DNA from: Anas platyrhynchos
Taxonomy: Eukaryota > Chordata > Aves > Anseriformes > Anatidae
Direction of reading: 5' to 3'
Assembly: GCF_047663525.1 (NCBI RefSeq)
Contig: NC_092601.1
Span: 19,442,001 to 19,506,000 of the forward strand
DNA length: 64,000 bases
The translations under genes were made by a program, and so were the position numbers. The notes beneath the pieces are model-generated. The model had not been told where the DNA came from. It ran no database searches and saw nothing but the letters and a program-made list of their open reading frames with translations. How positions within the stretch are numbered: position 1 is the first letter of the stretch; every line of letters starts with the position of its first letter. This document shows, piece after piece, positions 5,101 through 52,825 of this stretch.

Positions 5101-8100
5101 TACTCAAGGGTGCATGTGACTGCTTAAAGAGATTTACCAAAGAACAGCTTTGTTGAGTCAAAGATCAGCCTAACCTTGTGGCCTCCGTTCACACAGTGCT
5201 CACGCCTATTGTGTGTGGAAGAGGCTCAGGACAAATTCAGAGCGATCTTTGCCCTGGGATACTCTGCTGGGATTATGAAGTGATGGGTTCAGAGAGCTTT
5301 GAAGTCGGGGTTTGGATCCGTTCCTTGCAGTGCAGTGCTCTGTGCCGAAGGGCCGGCTGCTGCCGGTGCTGCCCAGGGAGCCACGGGCCTGTGGTGCAGG
5401 GGCAGAACGGGGAGGGGGCTGCGGGGGCTGCGGGGGGCTGTGGGGGGCTGCAGGGCTGCCCAGGGGCAGCACAGCATGGGCTCTGTGTGGCTGCGACCTG
5501 CCTGTGGAGTCGTGGCAGCCGGGTGCCTCAGCTGGTGGTGCCGGTGGCAGCAGAGCAGGGGCTGGGCGCCCGCTGATGCACCCGTGTTGTATTTCCCACC
5601 CGGGAAGTGTTGTGTGCCCTCTGGTTTGTTTAATGCAAGGCAGAGAGGGAAGTCTTTCTCTCTGAGGTGTGTGTGAAGGCAGCTCCTTGCTCCTGTCTCA
5701 CTCTGCAAACTCGTGGGGCCGGATGAAGGAGCTAGGCACAAACTCCAGCGTGCTGTTGAGCACTGCTGTTGCAGCAGCTCAGGCATCACTGAACAAATGT
5801 TGCTACCCGTTCCAGGCATTGTAAAAGAAGACCCCAAATTGCCAGAGGACAAAATTTTACCTCCTCCTTCTCCAAGACCGCAGAATTCTATTTTTGACAC
5901 AGATGAAGAGAAATCCAAGGTAAGCCTGAAGGCTTTCCTCCCTGCTCCCCCTCTGAGTTTCAGTGCTGAGAAAACGTGCTGGGTCGTGTTTTGGCGGCTC
6001 CTGCTGCGTCTCAGAACATCAGGACACTGCTGATACTTCTTGCTGTGCCAGGGCTAGAAGTAGAGAGTGAAAATTCTTTGAGACTTTGTCAGAAAATGTT
6101 GCATGGTCAAAAGTGAAACATTTTTACAGAAATAACTCAGTTCCTATTCACCTCTCCTGAGGGAAGGCTTCTGCAGTCCCCGCAGAGCCAGCTCCTATTC
6201 CCAAGCACCCTGTGAAGCAGAGCTCTCCTTTGCCCTGCCCAGGGCCTGGGTCATTTTCTCCCTTTTCCCCATGCCCCTGGTAACAATAATCAGCCTTCGG
6301 GCTGTTCCAGAAAGCGTTTGTTCTAATCTGTCTGTGCTGAGCTGCTTTCTGTTGCATAAATAAACCCATGTTTGCTACAGGGGCTTGAGCTTGTATCTCC
6401 TGTATCCCGAGTGAGTGCCTGAACCACGGGGCTGTTGAGGGCTTCTGCCCCGGCCCAGTACAAGGGTTTTTGGTGGTGGAGGGTGGGCTGGCAGAGATGG
6501 AGCAAAGCTGCAGCGTGAGCCTGTGTTCAGGGCACCCTTGGAAATCCCCGCGGTTCAAGCACTTCCTCAGTCTCCTACTGCTCAGCTGTTACTTTCAGTG
6601 TGGAAGTTCAGATCTGTTCCATGTTTCAGTGGAAGCTGTTTGAAGTGTTACAAACTAATAATCAGCGTGAGCAAGTGCCGGGGAAGCAGAGGGCTGTCAT
6701 TACTCTGCTCTTAGACATGGAGAGAAGCAGGGGGCTAAGGAGCCCTGCCACAAAGACAGATGTGTCGGAGCCAGCTCTGTTTTTTCTCAGCCTGACCTGT
6801 AGTTATTACCAGCTTTGCCTGTGCACTTTTGACTGCTGTTCCTCTGCCAGATTACAAGACAGAACCCCACGGATTTCCAGGGTTATGGAGACAATTATGT
6901 CAGTGGGTGTCTGTGACCCTGCTCTGTTGTGAGGTGTACCTGCAGCACAGTGCCCAGGGATGTTACTGACCTGTCCCATGGTCTCGCTCCACAGCTGCTA
7001 GCCAGGCTTTTGAAGAGCAGCCACTCTGAAGACTTGCAGGCAGCCAACCGTCTGATCAAGAGCATGATTAAAGAGGTAGGCATTCGCAAGAGCCGGCAGT
7101 TCCTCTGGTCAGAAGCTGTTTGTGGCAGGAGAGGATGAGAAGTGACTCGACAGTTGGGTTTGTGGCAGATGGCCCTCTGTACATGAGCTCCAGAATGCCT
7201 GCTGCCGTCCTGGTGTTAGAGGCAGGGCCAGCAGGTGCTAGTGGGGGCCCAGAGTTCAGCTTCAGGTGAACCGTTTATGCTGGGGATGAGTTTTCAGTAT
7301 TTGCTATTCTGAAGTTACAGTGTGAGATGCCTTACTTTGTTTCCCTAACGTATGCCAATTGCTATGAAGAGGGAATATTTATTCCCGGGAGCACCTGTGG
7401 CAGGATGCTCGCTCTTTAGTGGCATCCTGGCAGTAGTTTTGCATTAGTGATGGGAGGTTTCCAAAAATAAACTCATTTCCCAATTGGTGAAAAGCTACAT
7501 CTGTACAGAACTGTCTCTTTCCTGCAGGCATTGTGTGTGTGTGTGCAGTTGTTACACACACGGCTTTGTGCTGCTGTGTACCTTCGGTAATGTGTCAATA
7601 GGAAGCAGTCCTGCAACAAGAGTTATCCGGAGTGACCCTGACAAAAGCATGTGCACTGTGTTTATTAGTTAAATCATTGTCTATTTTTGTTTCATTTTTC
7701 ATCAAAGGAACAAGAAAAGACAGCCAAGGTGTCCAAAAGAGTGAATACAATCAGTGAGGTTTCTGAGAACGTTAAACAAATGGATGAATTGCTGGAAAAT
7801 TACAAGAGACAAGAATTAGCCAAATCTGACCATGAGACACTCCAGGTAGACGATTCTATTTACTGCATGGGAGGTTCTTTTGGCTGGCTATGCCTGGGAG
7901 GGCTCAGGACAACAGGATTCAAAGGGCAGCAGGCTGCACCCAGTTTTTGCGAGGGAAAGCGCGTTACCACAGCAGGAATAGCTTCCAGCATACCTGATGA
8001 GCGATGTCCCTCTTGTCTGAGAATGGAAATTGGAATGGAACTGGCTTTGATGTGCCACTTTGAGTTTCTGTGCAGATTATCTGCTCTTCTTGTGGTATCT

Positions 8101-11100
8101 TATAGGGAAATGGTTCTTCCTCTAATAGTGGAGTAACACATGGGAATTGCCTTTAGTCCAGCCGTGGTTAGGTGGGTGTGTGGAGATCTGATCAGGACAG
8201 CTTAAAGCTTTGGGTTCTTCAGCTTCCATTACGGTTCTGTGATTCCCCTTTTTTCTACCCAGAGTTCAGTAGTCTGCTTCACAAATCATTCACGTAATAC
8301 TTCCTAAAACACTGTGAAGAGAGCCATAAAGGTATTTGCAGCTGATGGTCGTAACACTTCACTCTCACTCCTCTTACATCCATGGATGCTTTTTTATTTT
8401 AAATTGGAAGTTTTAACACTGCCTTACCTTACACCTGTATGCATAGATGAGACGTGACTGAGGAGGAGATGCTAGTAACACTTGTTCCAGTGGCTGTACT
8501 TCCAGGTCGCTGTGAATTTTAGGAGTGCAGCAACATGCAGCACTGATGTCCTTTGTCTGGACCTGGGCAGAATGCATCTTGCTGTTCTAGAGTAGCATTG
8601 CCTACAGATGGTTGGATGGAGAGAAGTGCCCAGGATCTCCCAAGCAATGACACAAAACATTTCCTTTCTTAGAACCTGTTTCAGCGCTGTGAGAAGCTCA
8701 GGCCGCTGCTCTTCCGCCTTGCCAGTGAGACAGTTGATGATGATGATGCTCTCGGTAAGAGCCAACACTGTCTTTGGAACTCATTGCATTTAAATCCCTC
8801 TAACATCCTTTCATAAGTGGGGTATTCCTTTCCTCAGAGGAGAAATGCTCAGGTACTTGTGAGCCAAGTTTTCTACTTGGACTTTTAAACCGTTTCCATG
8901 AGAAGTGGCATAAGGATTCTCTTATTTCTTTCGAAGGAAGCTATTAATTTTCCCTCAAAGTTAAATGATGAATCCGGTTTCCTCCATCCAAGGTGGTTTT
9001 CAGAATTTGTTGAGTTCTACTGTTCTGAGAATTGAAAGCTTTTGAGGCTTTTCTCCTGAGAGATGGTAGTTTTCCCTATCTATATCAGAGGGGAGAATGC
9101 TTTTTGAATTTTGTAAATAATAGAAAGGGGAGGGTTATATGAGCAGAATTCTTTGAATTCCACGGTTGTGAAATTTAGCCCTTCCCAGAGTATTGCATTT
9201 CACAGTCTTATCTATTTGTCTCAAAAACATGACTGAAATGATGCCTCGCTGAAAATGCCGACAACTTAAACAGCAAAGAGCTAATCTGTGCCTCAGACAT
9301 TTTATGTGCATAAGAGATGCAGGGACTGTGAGTCCTTTGGAGATCAGTAGTCTCGATAAGTTACAGATAAGACTGAAATCAACAAATGTGTGTGCAAAAT
9401 GCTGTGCTTCAGGAAACAGAATGAAAAACGTGCAAAATGGGGACACTGGGTGGAGAGCAGGGCAGAAGAAAAGGCTCTGAAGGCGATAGTTCATCATGTT
9501 GGGTGCAAGTCTTCCTCTGCTTCTCTTCTTTCCCAGCCGAGATACTGCAGGCCAACGACAAGCTCACACAGGCGCTGGGACGGTGCAGGCAGGTTGTAGC
9601 CAGCCTTGAAGATGATGGTGGAGAAGGTTCAGTCACCGGCCTCTCTGATGCACCAGGTAAAGAGGATCCTGCAGTGTTCCACGACAGCTCGGCTTCCTGC
9701 TTTTTGTGTATGAATGGAGCTTGGAAGGGGAGACGCTTCTTGGAGAACAGATGTGGAGAAAATCCTCTAACATGGGAAAACTACGATGTAGTGATCATTG
9801 TGTTGTGTTTTTTTTTGTTTGTTTGTTTGTTTTTACATTTGGTTGACTGAAAATGTTCCTGGAGGTTTTCAACTGAGTCCTTTAGTCCTTGCTTGTAGCC
9901 AGGCATACACTGCTCCTTTTAGGAGGCTTCTCTTTAACTCCTTCTGCTTTTTCCAAAGCATGTCGGCCAGCGCCAAGACGTATGAAGAGCTATACATTGA
10001 TTGACTTCTCTGAGCTGGAGGCGACCTCCCAGTCTCCTACAGACCTATTTTCGGACGTAACCACTGCCTCCCGACACAGCAGCACCACCTCCAGTTGTCT
10101 GCTGGAGGAGGAGTTAATAGGTTTGTAAGCACACTTCAGTCCTGTTGTCCTTGTTACCAGAGTTCCTGGTACTTAACAGGTGTAGAAGAACTTTGACTGC
10201 AGTGTTGGTCCTAACCAAGCGTAGACCCTTTTAGCTAGGGAGAGTTTTCAGGAATGTAGTTTCGTTAATGGTGTTACACTGTAGTCAAACTGCTGTTAGA
10301 CAACAACGGAAGAATGTATGGAAAACAATTGCTTCCTGTAATTTATCTGTGCTCTTGGCATCTTTCTTAGGACTCAGCAACTCTCCTGGTTTACAGAAAC
10401 CACCACCTGACTTTGGAGTGGCAGAGGTTAGTGATCCTCAGGTATTTTAGTCAGTAAAATACAAAGGACAAAACTCAGATGGCATTTTTGATCTCCTAGC
10501 CTTCTCTGGCAACCTTTTTTTTTAAAGTCCCTCTATTCTGAATGGAAACTGTAATCTTCCTGCTCTGTAATGAGTTTATAAATTGCAGTTTGCAACAAGA
10601 TTTCTCACATCTATTTCTACCTTAAGTAGTAGTATTAAAAAAAAAGAAAAAAAGAGTTATTTTCAATGGAACAGGTTTGATTTTTGCTACCAGTATATAG
10701 TGTGAACCAGAAGTACCTTTTTTTCAGACTGGTGTACACAATGGATATAGTGAAATTGTAAGTGCTGTTGAAACGCTGGAACTGAAGGAGAGCTGGGAAG
10801 ACAGGACTTCATTGAAGAATGAATTTCAGGGCCTGGCTGATCAGTTCTCTCCACCTCCCAGGACCAAGACATTATCCTTGTAAGCAAGCCCCATGCAGCT
10901 CAGTTTGACTTTGGAGATGAGGAATATTGTATTATAGCAGTGAGGTTTGGGAAAACCTTTTAACTACATCTGGTTAATGATGGCAGGCTATCCATCCACG
11001 CATCAGCTCTTAAGCAGCAGTTGTGCACCTGTTTATTGTAATTCCACACTCTGACTTTCAAAGGGTCAGAAATGTGGTAGAACAAATCCTATGGCTTAGT

Positions 11101-41681: not shown

Positions 41682-44600
41682 TTACTCGGTCTCCGCGTCG
41701 CTGTCCAGGCCCAGAGCGTCCAGCGGCCGCACGCGCAGCGAGTCGTAGTTGGGTGGGGGGGTGCCGGGCTCCGGGGGCAGCGCCTCGGCCCCTGGGCTGG
41801 GGACAGGGCCGGCCTCCTCGTGCTGGAAGCCCAGGTTCGTGTGAGCCTCCACCAGCTCCGACACCGTGGGCGGTGCGTCCGGGTACCGCGCCTGCGCCCG
41901 CTTCTGCTTCAGGCCTTTGCACCAGCCGATGATGTTGATAACAGTGATCCACAGGGAGTCTATGATGATTTCCCCAAACTCTATGAGGCACAGCACGGAG
42001 CCGCCCATCCAGAACCCGAACTGGCCTCCCAGGCTCGACAACAGCCAGACAATCTGCAGGTGGGAGAGCGGGACAGAGAGGTGAGGTGGGGCTGCTGGTG
42101 CCGTGGGCTCTGGTGCCGAGCCCACAGCAACCCTGCCGCAGCACCGCATGAAGCGAGCGCGGGGCACTCACCGTGGTGGCAGCAGACTCCGAGATGGTCC
42201 GGTAGTTGTACTCCTGGAAGTAGATGTTCAGCTTGATGATGCCGGTCCTGCAACACAGGACGGGAGCTCAGAGTAAGTCACACTGCAGGCATCCCGCGGG
42301 CACGCACTGCCCGCTGCACAGGGGGAGGGCAGCTCCCAGCCCAACAGCAGGAACCTCTGCCCACTGCGGGGAGAAGCCCAGCAGCGTTCCCTGTTGCAGA
42401 ACATGTGCTGGGGGAGGGATGTGGCTCTGCTCCTGCAAAAACACTTGTGCACCTGGAACCTTCTCCAGGGCTGCCCGCTGTGTTTTTTTCCCAGCTGCCT
42501 TAGTTGGTCTGAAGCCTCCCCTGAGCACTGCACTGCTTGTGCTCCAGTGCTGCTTGTGTTCCAGCCACAGGGACACAGCAGCCGCATCGTGCAACAGCCC
42601 CAGGGCGGCAGGAGCCCAGGCCCTGGTTCTGCCCTCAGCAGCCAGTCAGGGCACACACGGAGCTGCTGGCGAGGCTGGGTGGTGCTGGTGAGGTGTTTGC
42701 TCACCATGCAGAAGTTAAGCATCTTCTTTTTGTTTTGCTCTGATTTGTTTTTAGGGCCTGGCATTAGGGCAGGACCCGGTTGGAGCTTTGTACCAGCCCA
42801 GGCTGTGTTGCAATACGTGGGTTAACGCAGGGCTCCTCGGCCTCCGCAAGAACTGGCTTTTCAGGCATGCTGAGCAACAAACACCACGGGAGCTGCCTGT
42901 GCTTCCCCAGCCTGCCCATTCCTTTCTTCCCTGTAACTCAGGGCCTAGGTTATCGAGGGATAACTCATCAGCCACCCTGCTTTTGGTGTAACCCCCTCCT
43001 GCTGCTGCTGTTGACAATTTGGAGGCATAAGTATAAAGGGACGAACGCAGCACTACAGGAGCTGAACCCTTGCAGAGCAGCACGTCAGAGCTTCCAGGCT
43101 GCTGGATGGGACCAGCTGGAAGCATAGCTCATGTTCATGTTAATTTAACTCCATGTTCGCAGTTGTGCCTGACCCCGTTTGTTACTGTGGGGAGCAGACG
43201 ATGTGCGCGAGGTGCGTTTCTTGCTTCATGTATTTTCCAGGCAAGCGTGTGCTGAATCTTGTTCTACTTTCTGCATTAGCAGTGTGCGCTCTGGCTGATG
43301 GCCAAGGCACGCGTTCAACTAATGTAGGCAGGCTCGACAGAGAAGATACAGTGGTTGTGCTTCTCACTTACCTGTCCAGGGTCACATTTGTTGACATGTC
43401 CCTTTCGTAAGACAAAATATGGAAAATCCAGTCCTAGGGAAACAGAACTAATTCAGAACAGAGAACAGCATCCTGTCTAAGCACTTGCCAGGGCAGGAAC
43501 CCAGGGCAGTAAGAAACCTGTCCTGAGTAGTCCTGTTTTAATCCAGCTCTGTTGGATTAAAAACACTGAGTAACGTGTTGGTCGAGTGTCCTCCGTCCCA
43601 CTCCCACCCGGTGGTTTGTGCAGGGCTTACAGCACGTCACCACGCTGCCTCCACTGACTCTGACTTTGTGTCCACAGATGGTGTCGGGCTGCAGGGGCGT
43701 TCTGGTTTAACGCGGTGAGTTCATAAGGCACTCGTCCCATGTGCTTAGGAGGCAAAGGCAATTAACGGGAGCTTGTGGCAGAAGATGGTGCGTGTTTACC
43801 CATTCCTAACTCCTGCACTTCGCAACTTGTAGATGCCTTTGCTCAAGCACAGTTGCTGTGGCTGCGTTTATGCAGCGGTAGCAGAGCCATGCTGGCTGTT
43901 GTTTTATCAATTCAGGATTAGAGATGATTGTTAAGATAAAGTTTTTCTGTAAGGGCTGTGTGTGAAGTCCTTGGTGGCCATGTGCCGGAATAAATTGAAT
44001 CACAGTGCATGTCTGAAATCTCCTCTGAAATCAGCTCTAACTGACTCTGTGTCACGAGGCACACCGTACCGAACAGGGTTTGCCTTGGGAGCCGTGCTGC
44101 CCGCCTGGAGGATGCGGGCACGGCGTGCTGTGAGGCGGGCAGCCAGCGGGGCAGCAAAGCCTCTGGTGCGTGGCGGGGGCAAGAGGTAGGGCTGCACACC
44201 TAGCATCGATCCCAGGTTAATCCTGAGTGCTTAGTGCGTGGTCCAAATGAGTGTTTGTTCTCTCTTTAGGGAGCCCACGAGACCTGACTGCCCCTGCAGC
44301 CTCCACCACCCTCGTGCTGTGGGCAGGTGGCCCCGTTTCTGGCTGCTCTGCTCCCAAAGGCACGAAGCAGCAAGGCGACAGCTCCCAGTGAGTGCGCTGC
44401 AGACCCCGACCGGGCGGCGTGTGCGAGGCAGGGCTGAAGGTAAGCACCCGTGCCCTGTGCCATGCCAGCGATACTGGAGGAGGACAGCCTGTGCCGTGCC
44501 CTGCCTGCGCCCGCCTGGCAGGGAGCGTGGTCACTCAGTGGTCACTCAGCTTTGCTCATGCTGCTGCGGGGTTGTCACCCCTCGTGCCTCATGCTCTGGG

Positions 44601-47600
44601 GTTAGGCTCTGTCTGCAAGCTGAAAATGTGTAATTTAGCAAAGAGGCCCTTGCTACCTGGGCATTAACTCTAAAAGTACCAAGTGATTCACGTGGTTAAG
44701 AACGGGTAGTTATTAATGGCTGTTTCAAAACAAGAAATCAGTGTTACCTCTGAGGCTTCAGATGGCCAGTCTGCCATAGAGATGGTCATTTTATACTGCG
44801 TGTCGCTAGGAAGAAGGGGGAAAGAACATTAACACAGAAGTCACTGGAACTTCAGTTCTCATTTACATAAGCAACCCCACTCAGTTTTCTGCAATTTTAA
44901 GGAGGTCAGAATTGCTGGGAGACAAAATGCAGGATTCTTTTACCTCTACAGCTGCCAGAAATAGTCGAAGTACTTACTTGCATGTTTCCTTACAAGAGTC
45001 AATGCAAATTTGTCTCTGTCTTATACTTGATCTCAGTGATGAATAGCAGTATGCTGTTTGGTGAAAACAAAAAATCGAAGCTTCTGTTTAGATAAGAACC
45101 GCACTTACTGGATTATATTCATTTCATAGATTCAATTCTAATTTCTCAGTAGTGATAAACGTGCACCCAGGCCCTCCCTCCTGCGTGCCAGTGCCCTGGG
45201 AAGGCCGTACAGGCAGCTTTGTTGGTGCTCTTACCCCAGCCTGGGTTATCGTCGTTGTTGCAGTAAGTTACCCCTTCGGGTAAAGGGAACATGTAGTGAC
45301 CGCATCCACAGATCTCAGCCATGTGATTTTGGAAACAGGAACGCAGGCAGGCCTGGAAAAAGGGAAGAGGGAGCTGCTTAGAAGTGGGGTGTACTTCCCT
45401 GGTGAGCTCTGTGTTGCTGCTGTCCGTGTTTGCTATGAGAATTAGCCTGCTCCCAGGCACATTCCTTCCAGGGGCTCTCTTGCACCAAGTAGAAGGTTTT
45501 GTAGCTCCATACAGAGAGAAAGCTGCCTCTGCCATGGGAGCCATCCTACAGAGATGCTCCTCCAGCCTGTGCCAAGCGTCTCCAGTTGCTGCAGCACCGC
45601 GTGGCAGCCCCTCACAGCAGCACTGTTTGTGGTCTGTCACAGAGCAGTGATTCCAACAGAAAGAAGAGGTTGGTGAGTAAGCGATCATGTTTATAGCTGC
45701 ACTGCAATTACATTTCTCTTTATGTTGCATTTTTACTACTACTCTGGTTTTTAAGCTAAATTGTAGTGGCAAGTTAACGTGGGTAATTCACCTCGCAGGA
45801 GTAGAAGGGAGCTGCATGCCTGCTCCCAGCCGCACAGGGAACTGCTCAATTCTTAATTATTTTAGGGTTTCGTGGAAGCAATATAGAGTTTCCAAAAAGG
45901 AATAAAAATGTTCTGTTTTATCCACAGACACAGCTGTTGTCTCCAGGTTTTATATCACATATTGACAAAGGGTTGGTTTCCACTTGAAAGCCAAGACTTT
46001 AAAAATACTTCAACAAAAAGAGCAGGCTTTGGAAATCTGAATTATCTTATCTGTGCATCTGTTTCTCTCCTTGAAGGGATTACAGCTGCAGCTCCGACAG
46101 CATGCGATCCAGGGCTGCAACACTGCCATTAGCTCAGCGAGGCATGAAGTTAATCATCAGAGATTGGAGTGGGATTTTTCATGAAACAATGCACAAAGCA
46201 ATAACAAAGTCTATGAGAAGATAATTGAATTTAACAGTTTCAGCTAGGTAGGACAGTCAGAGAATGTCTATGTAACACGAAATGCTTACAGAATTCACTA
46301 TAATCATGGAGTGATAAAAAAGGCTGGTGTTGCTGAGAGGTCTCTGAAGTGACAGGAATTATGCGGACATAGTACCCTGGCCAGCGTTTAGCAACTTTTA
46401 AGTAATAATGCAATCATTTCAAGTATTTGCTTAAACATTATACAAGCATCTTAAAAAGTAGGGTAAAGTGGTCCAATTGTTATAATTATATAAAGGCAGA
46501 AATGCAAAAAGCCTGCTAGACCAAACCCCTTCAATTTGTCTGAGATGTATTCTTCAGTCATTTGTAAATAACCCCAAAAATGTTTTTGGTGTTTTCTTTA
46601 TTGCCAGATCTCACCCCTAAGGACTGTTTCTCCCTTATGTTATAGCCTGTTACAAATTAACCAGTGTTTGATGTTTACACTATATTTTTATTACAGATTC
46701 AAGGTTTACAAACACTCAACTTTCTCATCCCAATTTTAAAGTGAAGAAAAGACAAAGGTCTGTCTTCACTTCCTGTACAAAATAAGCAGCCCTTCTCAGC
46801 GTAAAAATTGACTTCTTTCTCTCAGAGAGAAGGATTAAAAAGGAAGAGGTGTGTTCAGGAGAGGGATCCCTCCCGTGTGTTTATCCCTGTCAGGGCAGTA
46901 GCACCATTATGTGCGTACACAAAATACAAGCTGCTTTGCACCTTAGGGCAGCAGAGCAGCAGCGTGGTTAAAGCCAGCAGCACGACAGTTACCCAGGTTG
47001 CTGTTATCCGCCCGGAGCAGCCGGAGCAGCAGGAGGCATCCTGCTTCGTGACAAGCTGCGCTCTCAGCAAAGCCTCCTAGCACTGCAGTCACCTGGGCAC
47101 AGCACTGGCACTGGCACAGCGGCACGTGAGGGCGTGCTGACTGCTCAGCAACCCCGGGAGTTTAAAGAAGTTCGCGTGTTGAACACAGGTAATGATTGCA
47201 CGCCCGCCCCTTGCAGTTGATCTCCTTATAATTAAAAGATTTCAGCCAAGCATGGAAATTGTAGAAGAAGACATTCTCACAGCTGAAAAGAAATTAATTG
47301 CCTCAGTGACACGTCAGGATCAGGTATTCTTTTAAAGGACCCCTGGAAGGAGAAAGCTGAAGTGGCAGGCGGCCGGCACGTGCAGCACTAGCGAGGCACT
47401 GACCCCTTCAGGAGCAACACCAAGGAGCCAGGATGTGTTAATGGGAGCGGGGGCACCCGGCTCACCTCCTCTCACTTTGATGTTTTCAGGTGAGAGGAAC
47501 CATCCGTGGGTGGAGCTGAGCTGAGCTGAGCTGAGGCAGCTGAGACCAGCTTTAAATCGTGTTTGTATGTCAAGGTAAAAATATTTTGCTTTTTGGTCTG

Positions 47601-50600
47601 AAAATCAGCGCTCTGCTGGTACATTGCCTGTACCAGGGTGCCTAACAACAGAGATGCTGGGGGATTTTCTGTGTTACGGCTTTTGAGAAAATTACAGCAA
47701 TGCCCGTTTTCATCCCTCTCAAAATGAAACAAACTTCATGCCTAAATAAGGCAAAAATTACTAATACTGCTTCCTTGCTATGTGAGCTGCTTTGGAACAG
47801 GAATGAGGACTGTATGTTACACGAAACTGCGTTGTCTGCCAAAACAATATTCGTAATAGTTTGATGTAACTTTTAATAACTACGTCATTAGGTTTTGATC
47901 CTGCAACAGAGTGCAAATACAGTGGCTTCACTGGATTGTTTCCAAACCCGGGGCTACTGCGTGTTCAGACCTGAGTTCTGATTTATTACCAGAAAAGAAG
48001 GTTCCCATGCTTAGGTTATGCTTCCTTCCTTATCACTGCTGAGCCTCCAGTAACCTGACAAGCCAGTCAAAATCTGCAACTGCTTTGAAGAGTTCCCCTG
48101 AACATCTTTGTTTGATTTAAAATCATGTGTTACCTGTATGGAGTAGGAAGTATTGTATTCGCTGTACAGGTTTTTTACAGGGACATCAGACCCATTCATG
48201 GTACAGTCACTGTAGGGGTAGCCCATCCGCTCTAGTTCATCCTGAAAGAAAACCAAGACAGCAAACGTGAGGTTATTGCTCCCCTGAGCACCTGGGGCTG
48301 CTTTTCCAGAGATTCTGTAATTCCCATATGTAATTCCCTGCTGGCTTTGGAAAAAAACTCAGAGAATCGCTGTCATCTTGTGCTCTGGCACCTCTGCTCT
48401 AGGAGAACCAGAGGCCCAGAGCGGGTGCCCTGGCCAGAGTTGCCAGCCAAAACTTGGGCTCTGGAGTGACATGCCAACAGCGTGTGTTAGCGAGGGACCT
48501 TCTGACATAGTATGAGAGGAGGGAACAATGACCTGGGCTCAATATTTTGGCTTTAATAAAGCACTTTGCCAGGACAGTTACATAAAAGTCTCCATAAACT
48601 TTTCCAGCCCATAGCTAGAGCACGCCTTGACTCTTTTGGTTTGAGCCAGTTCAGCCAAGACTTAAAACAAACTTGGTGGCGGTCCCATCAGATAACATTA
48701 TTCTCAGACAATCTGCTCTAGAGGAATGCCACACATACCACCAACACGCCGATGGAGGTTTCCGTCCCAGCCATCGCATAGATGCCCTGATCCTTGAGGA
48801 ATGGGAAGCTCTTCTGTTGATGCAGCATCAGCCGTGCCCCAGCAGCAGATGACAGGTAGGGGATGTAATCCTGCTGGCTGATGTCCAGAATCAGCTTCAG
48901 CCCTGTGGCACCAAACAAAATATTCTGAACAGGAATGGCATCAAAATTTAGGTCTTTATTAAAAAACAACAACAAAACACCTGAGCATCTTTTCCTCTCA
49001 CTGTGCACAGAAATCTCCAGTCCTTGGGGGAAGAACCCAAGCCTGTCTGCCACAGCAGGGTTACACGTGCGTAAATACGCATGATGGCAAATGCACAGAA
49101 TGGAAATATCTCACTGAGTGTTCAGCCATTCCCTCAGATACTTTGCCTATCCAGATGTTACACTTCTGCTAACTGTAGTCACGTTACTTCTCTCTATGCA
49201 ACAGATTTCCATTCTGGGGACTTATACCCTCTGGAAAACAGTTATTCCCTGCTGTAGTGCTCTGGAGAAAAAGAAATTACAAATCTGTTACAGATAACAG
49301 AAACTGCCATTGAGAGACAGAATAATTCCCAGCGCTTCTGTTCCTTTAACTCTTTCTTTAGTGCAGCTTTCTCTTACCAAACTCGGCTCCGGGGTTGGAA
49401 GAATTCAAAGCCTCTTTGTCCATGCCCCAGTTAAAGATGTAGCAGTTACCGTGGTCTGGGTGATAGATTTGGGTGAAATTCCTGGAAGAATCATGCGCAT
49501 AAAACTGTGACTCTCAGGGAGAACTAAAGGGTTATCAAATAACGGATGTGGTGAGACTGGCTTTTGGCAGCTAGCTCTGGGATTCACTTTAAATTGCTTC
49601 ATTTGTTGAACACTTGAATAGAAATTTCAGCTGATGTAATTCCAATCAATCTGCTGTTGGAAACAAAGAAAAGCCAGGTACTGACATGTACCGAGGCACA
49701 GCTGTTGAGGATAATGCTCTATCGTAATGGAAAAGAATAGCCTGCCATGCAGATGAGACCAAAAATACTGGCTTGATCTCAGCTATAGTAACAGGCTTTG
49801 GCTTGTGTTATATCTCATTCTTTGATAATAATTCTCTGTTGCCTTCTTTGCAGAAGTGGTATTGCTGGCAGGATTCCTTGAAGCCTGGGTTGCTGCTGTG
49901 CACTTGAATTTCTTAAAACTGTATATATAAATTCGGCATTCACAAGAAACAGTGATGGATAAAATGCATTTCTCAGAGCCTTGCGTAAAAAGATAAGGCG
50001 TAACTGAGGGCTGTGTCTCTGTGCTGACTCAACACCTGAGCTGGCAACGATTATTGCTAAATTCCTAGTGAAGGTCTCATCAGTGCTGCTAGCCTCAATA
50101 CATTGTGAGCAAAATGGCCCATCCAAACTAAACACCAAGCCACTATCCAAAAATACCATTTCAGCCAGGATCGCATCCAGAAACCATCTGGGAAATGCTG
50201 TTATATATACTTTAAAAACTAGAAAATAAAAAATAAAAGAGCTGTCCTGCCTTCAGCATCCTGCACCACTCCTGATGTGCCAGGAAGGGCTCAGTGTGTA
50301 CCTACTTGTAGTTGCAGGGTTCGGCCCCGTAGAGACATGCCAGGATCATGTCCTCTGCCTGGTAGCCCATCCTGATTCTTTCTTGCAGTGGGACTTTGGA
50401 GAGGATGCTGGTGGACTGCAGGATGTACCACTCCGTCACCGCCTGCGCTGCGCTGGTGAAGTTCCTGTAGGTGCAGTTGTTGGAGCCCTGGTGGCTGCAC
50501 TGGAGACACACACAGTCAGCTCCTGCCCCGGGCCAGCCCTGTCCCCTGGTCCTGAGGGACCAAAGCTGCGGCCAGGCAGGAGCTGAGGGAACGGTGGCCA

Positions 50601-52817
50601 CATCTGAATGTGCTCAACAGGTGGGTCGGAGAGTGATACCACATGGAGTGGGGGTTGGAAGGGACCCTAAGGATCATCTAGTTCCAGCTAGATGCCACCC
50701 ACTAGATCGGGGGCCCTTTCCCAGGGACATTTCCCAGCTGGACAGCTTCTCCATCAGTCCCAGAGGTTACCTCACCGTGCTTACAGAAAACATCATGTTT
50801 TGCTCAATTCTTGAAGGCTGCAGTTGTCTCAGCTTCCAAGGTCTTGGCCTGTAACACTGCCTGGCAGGACTGAGGCCATGGGAGAACAGGACGGGGGGAA
50901 GCAAGGCCACCGCGTGCCCCCACTGTGCCCCTGCAGCGGGCGCTGGGCAGGGGATGTGGCCGCAGCCTGTCCCCAGTGCTTTGGGTACGGGCATAGAGGA
51001 AGGGGTGGAGGTGGCAGGCAGAGCCCCCCCTCTGCCCTGCCCTGGTGCAGCGGGCAGCCCCTGGCTGGGGGCTGCTGCATGGCGCAGGGACAGGCAGAGC
51101 CCTGCCCGCACCCACTGAGGCTGTGCCCGGCCCTCCCCGTGGCGGGGATGCTGTCGCCACCGCACCCCCTCTTACCAGCTTCACTGCCAGCTTGTACTTC
51201 TTCTCTTCAGAGGTGAAGTTGGACGGGGCAGGAGGAGCAGCAGTGGTCCCGTTCCCTGGAGCAGTCCCGTTCCCTGGAGCAGTCTCGTTCCCTGGAGCAG
51301 TCTCGTTCCCCAGAGAGATCCCGTTCTCTAGAGCAGTCCCGTTCCCCGGAGAGGTCCCGTTCCCCGGAGCTGTCCCATTCCCTGGAGCAGTCCTGTTGGT
51401 CTCAAAGATCTCCACGATGACAGGGTTGTCCTTGTCATGCTCATCAATGAGCACCAGTGGAATCTGGTTCCAGAGTGCCAGATCCAGCCCCTCGGAGGCA
51501 TTGTCGCTGCCGTTCAGCAGCAGGGGTGTGATGGTGTCCCCGTGCGTGGGCTGCAGGATCCTCTCCAGAGCCGCCTCGATCAGCTTGTCCAGCTCTTTCA
51601 GCAAGTGCTTCACCTCCGAGTACCTGCAGGGCGACAGGCGGGCACCAGCTGGTGTAAGGGCGCTCGGGACGTGGCCGGGCTCCGTCACGCCGCTGTGCCA
51701 GGCCCGTGTGGGGCTGTGGCTGCGGGGAGCTGCAGGAGGCGAGCTGCACGGCAGCGCCAGGCTCTGTGCGCAGCCAGCGGGGCGCCGCGTCTCCCAGCAG
51801 CTGGGTGTAAAATCATCCGGAGATAAACAGAGTCCTTCACTGGCAAACCTCGCTCACAGCCTGTTGGCACAGGGCTGCCTGTGTTGTATTTCAGCAATTC
51901 ACTGAAGTTTACACAAAACAACTTCAGCAAGCAGAGAGAAAAAACAACAGATCCCTGTGCCTCAGGCGAGAGCATCTCACCTTGCGCTACGCTACTGCGT
52001 GGATATAAATTTGAAGCAACCCTAGCAAAGATCAGTTGCTCCTTTGAAATTGTAATTATGTTGCTGTAGCTCACAGCAGATATCACTGTTTAACTAGCTC
52101 TTAATGGCTGGAGTGTACGCGATAAGAGGTATGTTCATGGCGAGGAAAAAGAAAGGAATTGTGGGGAGAGATCACGAGACTGATTTTGATTGTGACAAGT
52201 TAGTTGAACTTCAAGTTTTCTCTGAGCCAGGGAAAGTTTACAGGGAGGCAATAACCATTATTAGATTAGCTGATACAGTAATGAGAAACAGACAAACTCG
52301 CAAGCACACAACCCCTGCTTTGGATCCGAGCCATTTGTTTTTACATTGTTCTCATTTGTTTGTTTTTTAGTGCCACTTGGTGAGTCAAAGGATAATTTTC
52401 ACTGCTGCTCCCAATGATACCTGAGACAGGAACAGCCCCGTGTATCTTGTGCTGTAACTGCGTGTGTTCACATGCAACGGCATAAATCAGGCAAAGGAAA
52501 ACTTACTTGAAGGGGTTGGCGTTGCAGACCGTGACTGCTGGGAACTTCATGGTCTTAAAGCCGATGGAGAGCGACGACGTGACGTTGTAGGAGAGGTACG
52601 TGTTAATGAGGATACCCCACTGCCAGAAGACCAGAGACGCGAAGAGCAGCGTTAAGAAGAACCAGATGACTTTCTTCTTCGGCCCCTCCTTGATGATGCG
52701 CTTGGGGCCGTGCGTGTTGGTGTTGTCGCAGTACCAGACCAGCAGCTCCTTGTAGGTGTAGCCGGGGCCCTTCTGGAGGCGGTGCAGGGCCCGGACAAAG
52801 TACTTCTTCACGTTCAT
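41682..52817 (-). CDS. SCNN1B: SCNN1B, epithelial sodium channel beta subunit (12 coding exons, 696 aa)
   Basis: Subunit of amiloride-sensitive ENaC, the apical channel for Na+ uptake in kidney, gut and airway. Coding exons in transcript order: 52817-52507, 51623-51176, 50499-50306, 49481-49378, 48902-48739, 48241-48134, 45352-45235, 45053-44978, 44805-44748, 43433-43372, 42247-42172, 42053-41682. All phases close (2091 nt). The gating HG motif is at 36-37 (NTHGPKRI), TM1 about 50-71, then the large cysteine-rich ectodomain ([54 protein letters not shown]). The TM2/pore starts near 582 ([14 protein letters not shown]); the C-tail holds the Nedd4-binding PY motif PPPNYDSL (Tyr676). It is longer than human (640 aa), mainly from a glycosylation-sequon repeat in coding exon 3. 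The start is chosen by homology (MNVKKYF), with A at -3; 8 bp of 5' UTR precede it in the same exon. Convergent with COG7. Confidence 0.96.
47511..47535 (+). repeat. (GAGCT)n pentanucleotide repeat, SCNN1B intron
   Basis: Four to five tandem copies of GAGCT in the intron between SCNN1B exons 48241-48134 and 45352-45235. Simple microsatellite. Confidence 0.8.
50640..50770 (-). mobile_element. CR1 LINE 3'-end fragment, reverse orientation
   Basis: The plus strand reads GGTTGGAAGGGACCCTAAGG, then ATCATCTAGTTCCAGC, the inverted CR1 3' terminus, continuing to about 50770. It lies in the SCNN1B intron between exons 51623-51176 and 50499-50306. Short and degraded. Confidence 0.8.
51246..51407 (-). 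repeat. 18-bp coding minisatellite in SCNN1B exon 3 (A-P-G-N-G-T repeat)
   Basis: Eight consecutive 18-bp units (51246-51389, boundaries every 18 bp) and a ninth degenerate one (51390-51407). Read on the minus strand they encode variants of A-P-G-N-G-T. Because 18 is a multiple of three, copy number can change without a frameshift. Encoded sequons in order are NRT, NGT, NGT, NGT, NGI (lost), NET, NET, NGT, NGT at residues about 180-230, with NFT following at about 239. The flanking channel sequence is normal SCNN1B. Confidence 0.95.
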
Positions 52818-52825
52818 CCTGGTGT
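52818..52825 (-). other. 5' UTR portion of SCNN1B first coding exon
   Basis: Eight bases between an acceptor (TTGCAG on the minus strand, plus-strand 52826-52831) and the ATG. This implies at least one upstream non-coding exon, as in mammalian SCNN1B. Confidence 0.7.

Follow-up and report, generated by a model that had tools for sequence, protein, structure and literature searches.

The window analyzed here, a stretch of 64,000 nucleotides (19442001-19506000 of its contig), carries on its minus strand SCNN1B, the gene for the beta subunit of the sodium channel ENaC. Its coding sequence begins in exon 2 (52507..52825, with the start codon at 52817) and continues through coding exon 3 (51176..51623), exon 4 (50306..50499), exon 5 (49378..49481), exon 6 (48739..48902), exon 7 (48134..48241), exon 8 (45235..45352), exon 9 (44978..45053), and exon 10 (44748..44805). 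These nine exons have AG/GT at their splice ends and, when joined from the start codon, give 527 residues in one frame with no stop. Exons 11 (43371..43433, with a sequon NVT) and 12 (42169..42249) follow on the same strand, both with approximate ends obtained by tblastn. The last coding exon (41682..42056, 5' end approximate) encodes the second membrane helix, the C-terminal PY motif in PPPNYDSL, and the stop.

The joined protein matches the Pfam family PF00858 (ASC, DEG/ENaC) over residues 29-526 (6.3e-88). With phmmer, it matches human beta at 2.8e-217, gamma at 3.2e-105, alpha at 1.1e-82, and delta at 1.7e-66, and human beta is its best match among the solved structures. The exons of SCNN1G adjoin on the same contig and strand (C15:19511221-19520648). 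On the side opposite to gamma, a plus-strand open stretch (7669-8133) shows weak similarity to the GGA GAT domain (E 0.0022), which we take to fit the GGA2 neighbourhood of SCNN1B in mammals. Together, the ASC match, the closeness to human beta, the gamma neighbour, and the GGA-like stretch make the identification of the gene as SCNN1B well supported, as proposed in a preliminary description of this DNA, and the exon that it named is supported as well.

Coding exon 3 is 448 nt long and encodes no cysteine. It contains nine 18-bp units in tandem and in codon phase (51236..51397, minus strand; residues 180-233 of the joined protein); being tandem, in frame, and of a period divisible by three, the array is a coding minisatellite. 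The corresponding TRF row (51246-51397; period 18, 8.4 copies, 83% matches) has a score of 197, the highest among the 19 rows in the window. N-X-T is kept in eight of the nine units, the remaining one reading NGI, and two of the sequons read NET. The exact hexapeptide APGNGT is found in four units, the others being variants of it. In its total of 11 sequons, in its in-frame period, and in the threonine retained at eight of nine asparagine positions with a single drift to NGI, exon 3 is as the preliminary description had it. Two of its details needed revision: what had been read as about eight copies of A-P-G-N-G-T is a set of nine units that are mostly variants, and the interval 51246..51407, while covering a real array, runs 10 bases beyond it at its end and takes over at its start the TRF boundary, which clips the degenerate last unit. 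The observation of the array is confirmed.

Within the array, identity at a lag of 18 is 0.81, whereas none of 2000 shuffles of exon 3 exceeded 0.40. When the residues of the exon were shuffled 5000 times, they gave a mean of 1.78 sequons and a maximum of 7, so that 11 was never reached; the 11 sequons are not independent events, because copying one sequon-bearing unit brings others along. Units 1-8 have pairwise identities of 0.67 to 1.00, with units 6 and 7 as the sole identical pair, and a divergence of up to one third fits an array of some age better than a recent expansion, as far as can be judged from the units themselves. A scan of the window with the 18-bp unit, allowing up to 3 mismatches, gave 6 matches (0.07 expected), all within the array. 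When the array peptide was searched against the whole 1.26-Gb genome (42 contigs), the sole strong match among the 25 obtained at E up to 10 was the SCNN1B locus (1.8e-30); the next had an E of 0.0198, and the weaker matches form a low-complexity tail. No published description of the array was found in the literature searched, mostly papers outside the subscription journals. We conclude that the array is genuine and unusual, in a gene already known, and that it shows a familiar kind of mutation at a new location.

Relatives of exon 3 were also sought in genome contigs by pattern matching; 331 stretches were found and 6 loci kept, none of them an ENaC gene. All 6 were rejected as relatives, since they are low-complexity prokaryotic look-alikes. 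These loci act as a control: as the same peptide pattern occurs in bacteria, neither homology nor glycosylation is proved by the motif by itself. A convergent look-alike of the array occurs in a Methanosarcina MAG (L001:5001-5228), a low-complexity run of (x)PGNAT/PGNGT that is full of sequons. As a separate observation, PF00858 was found above cut-off in a control genome, that of the bacterium Thermotoga maritima.

The alignment of the joined protein to human beta breaks at bird residue 183 (human 173) and resumes at bird residue 246 (human 188). In this interval 62 residues of the bird protein (184-245) replace 14 residues of human beta (174-187), in keeping with the preliminary description, in which the human segment is short and non-repetitive. 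The residues directly before the array match human beta PLVLIDERNPHHPMVLDLF, and gamma RIPLLIFDQDEKG aligns at the same place. Noreng and colleagues (PMC6197857) name the strands of the GRIP domain P1 to P4; in their account P1 holds the inhibitory tracts, and the second site at which proteases cut alpha and gamma is on the C-terminal side of P2. According to our own reading of the alignment, P1 and P2 of bird beta would correspond approximately to 51413..51484 (minus strand), a segment that includes PVIVEIF and is conserved with human beta. Since the alignment gap follows the P2-matching segment, the array is placed in the P2-P3 linker, outside the inhibitory tract. The proposed match to the protease-activation region of alpha and gamma is thereby borne out, and it narrows to the stretch after P2. 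Two further sequon-bearing segments flank these elements on the same strand: an upstream GRIP segment (51488..51534) with NGS and NAS, which aligns at the proximal polybasic site of gamma and lies before P1 in a stretch 10 residues longer than in human beta, and a tail past the array (51201..51235) that holds the last exon 3 sequon, NFT.

A comparison with chicken was possible for the upstream segment, using the chicken SCNN1 qPCR primers listed in Table 4 of PMC3851161 and matched to this genome. Six of the eight primers have sites with 0 to 3 mismatches, the alpha forward primer is mismatched at 4 of 19 positions in its best place, and none of the indel-free placements of the beta reverse primer is clear. 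On these matches we take the DNA to come from a bird other than chicken. The chicken beta product is given there as 168 bp (PMC3851161), and an LNxS site starts 148 bases past the beta forward primer both in the window and in chicken. Because this spacing is equal, the 10 extra residues before P1 are probably present in chicken too. At this place chicken, judged by its primer, has LNNSNA and this bird LNGSDNAS. The chicken product stops before the array, and the comparison covers the sequence upstream of it.

Bird beta and human beta (SCNN1B; PDB 6bqn, 6wth) align from end to end over the joined part and share a P1-like tract, the PY motif, and a GRIP domain devoid of polybasic tracts. Human beta has cysteines within residues 104-203 at 184, 189, 196, and 203 only. 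The C196/C203 pair is kept in bird beta as cysteines 254 and 262, both encoded by exon 4, and these would form the GRIP disulfide shared by ENaC subunits. C184 and C189, in contrast, are absent from the bird protein, as are the human sequons at 141 and 146. Given that 184 and 189 are not retained while 196 and 203 are, the bond that we read as C184-C189, the ninth disulfide and one found in beta only, is probably missing in bird beta. At the start of exon 4 (50475-50499), an N-C-T sequon overlaps the second cysteine, replacing the human N199 sequon that lies between the pair. Bird beta has 19 sequons in residues 1-527, to which NVT in exon 11 is added, and human beta has 10 in residues 1-468, three of them in 104-195, with one more beyond residue 468. 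Human beta is thus itself rich in sequons, and the number of N-glycosylation sites predicted for it in PMC6197857 is 11.

The other ENaC subunits of the same genome differ from beta in this region. In exon 3 of gamma, KVRR and RKRK flank the tract, and exon 3 of alpha has RTSR and RQKR; the same alpha and gamma motifs are tabulated for chicken, with none for chicken beta (PMC8791634, Table 1). In bird beta exon 3 we found no R-x-x-R, no R-x-[KR]-R, and no run of three K/R, so that polybasic tracts flanking an inhibitory tract, as in a protease-activated GRIP of the alpha/gamma type, are not present. Exon 3 encodes one sequon each in alpha and gamma, 4 in delta, and 11 in beta, and no cysteine in any of the four subunits. 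In the 10-kb regions of gamma, alpha, and delta analyzed with TRF, no tandem repeat had a period of 18. Within one and the same domain and linker, alpha and gamma thus have polybasic tracts and a single sequon each, beta an array and no tract; the distal cleavage site of alpha and gamma belongs to this linker (PMC6197857). This contrast between cut and uncut subunits, drawn from four genes of one genome, is suggestive. The same source describes beta as not known to undergo proteolytic activation (PMC6197857), and this, with the lack of a polybasic tract to protect, is evidence against the earlier idea that the array alters protease access. Two observations were made along the way: the GRIP region of delta (exon 3 at L017:3772-4200, approximate) has the sequons NTT, NLS, NFS, and NKT and one RQSR-like motif, and the gamma region contains 26 perfect copies of (GGAAG) in a row (L015:9215-9346), between exons 2 and 3 by position.

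The 11 sequons of exon 3 lie between the two membrane helices, in the extracellular part of the protein. In the array every sequon is of the N-x-T type, and the residue at +3 is A, S, or T, never proline. N-x-T is reported to be used better than N-x-S, and the sites that the STT3A complex skips to include N-C-T/S sites and closely spaced N-x-S sites (PMC4750078). Because the array sites are N-x-T, most of them are likely to be N-glycosylated. To what extent selection preserves them was addressed by counting changes from the consensus unit: 1 of 17 abolishes a sequon (3.05 expected, P 0.07) or, with each change counted once, 1 of 10 (1.35 expected, P 0.61), both being weak tests. Nonsynonymous changes numbered 9 against 9.73 expected, and 6 against 6.00 with each change counted once. 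We detected no significant excess of sequon preservation among the array units in this low-power test, in which the P of 0.07 leans weakly towards selection. Once one sequon-bearing unit has been copied, the remaining sequons come free, and the counts suggest that the array may have been retained neutrally.

The reading we favour, and hold to be reasonably probable, is that an in-frame tandem expansion turned the P2-P3 linker into a flexible N-glycosylated sleeve which is passive at most and merely tolerated. Within an intact SCNN1B, 18 bp of exon 3 would have multiplied in tandem and in frame, the array-bearing exon would be translated, and most of its N-x-T sites would receive N-glycans in the endoplasmic reticulum. 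The resulting linker would be disordered and hang from the rim of the extracellular domain, close to where beta meets gamma; human beta appears to have at this place a short loop that a disulfide closes. A bulky hydrophilic sleeve of this kind may passively shield the beta GRIP, which, unlike that of alpha and gamma, would be left uncut. The loop would tolerate length, and the array would persist mainly through its harmlessness. The GRIP region is described as poorly conserved across vertebrates (PMC8791634), and a length change there is therefore of the kind most easily tolerated.

Among the functional readings, the best anatomical fit is an adaptive one in which beta acquired sequons at each of the two sites that are cleaved in alpha and gamma, with the result that its GRIP could no longer be opened and P1 would act as a fixed brake. 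NGS and NAS do fall at the proximal polybasic place of gamma and the array at its RKRK place, the sequon counts of the four subunits peak in beta, the P1-like segment is conserved, and coelacanth beta, with a KRER at site 1 (PMC8791634, Table 1), is an example of a beta subunit that has a tract there. We nevertheless consider this reading unlikely: bird beta has no tract left to be protected, human beta, which has 3 sequons in the matching stretch, is not cut either, the four subunits of a single genome do not suffice to establish a correlation, and the comparison of array units gave no signal of selection. It is less probable still that the arm is a tether, its N-glycans attaching to extracellular matrix or glycocalyx so that shear force reaches the channel through them. 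The array would offer many such sites on a flexible arm, and N-glycosylation motifs added to human delta did raise the shear response in a manner dependent on intact hyaluronan (PMC7958617). That engineered channel likewise has extra N-x-S/T sites in an ENaC subunit, but the effective ones were two designed single sites in the palm and knuckle of delta, whereas the array is a natural one and lies in beta, in the GRIP linker; position matters (PMC7958617). Moreover, alpha N232, N293, and N397 and delta N166, N211, and N384 were without shear effect, and in a study cited there the replacement of several asparagines changed maturation and trafficking but not shear activation (PMC7958617). These published finger-glycan results weaken the idea of a shear tether, and a slack linker, in another subunit, would transmit force poorly.

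Of very low probability in our view is a mucin-like linker with O-GalNAc on its T-A-P and TTAAPPAPS parts and with few N-glycans. The A, P, G, T, and S composition of the arm does resemble that of mucin repeats, MUC1 being a repeat of similar composition, but most of its threonines belong to N-x-T sequons, and N-glycans are attached first. An artefact, whether a misassembly, a wrong number of units, or a part of the exon that is spliced out, seems to us highly improbable. The identity of units 6 and 7 means that the exact number could be off, and two acceptor-like sites (51204 and 51202) lie past the array. However, the other units differ from each other, unlike the product of a collapse or of a simple duplication error, and the contig spans 20.3 Mb. 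The best donor-like site in exon 3 before the array scores 5 of 9 on a crude scale, against 7 for the true donor, and the splice signals thus scored make an excision inside the exon unlikely; skipping the whole exon would shift the frame, as its length is 448 nt.

Coding minisatellites (VNTRs) in glycosylated linkers are known, mucin repeats being an example. The bird array has in common with these an in-frame period divisible by three, degenerate copies, and a low-complexity A/P/G/T composition. It differs from them in lying inside an ion channel subunit beside the gating machinery, and in that its unit encodes an N-glycosylation sequon.

ENaC controls salt and water balance, and the GRIP domains of alpha and gamma are the sites of its activation by proteases. 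Bird beta, some 60 residues longer in the matching linker and with a series of potential glycan sites there, offers a natural test of how much length and sugar such a linker tolerates, and also of whether the beta GRIP participates in gating. If the array is merely tolerated, it is a caution against deducing function from sequon counts. A more far-reaching possibility, to which we give little credence, is that the beta GRIP is locked by glycans, the mammalian disulfide loop having been lost, and that the number of repeats sets channel opening through the glycan bulk at the beta-gamma interface; were this so, length alleles would be a natural dial on sodium uptake. The worth of the array hinges on its spread, be it one species, the order, or all birds, and on whether its length varies. 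SCNN1B variants have been studied for eggshell traits in layers (PMC3851161). If the number of units varies, it may have a bearing on salt handling or, for layers, on eggshell traits.
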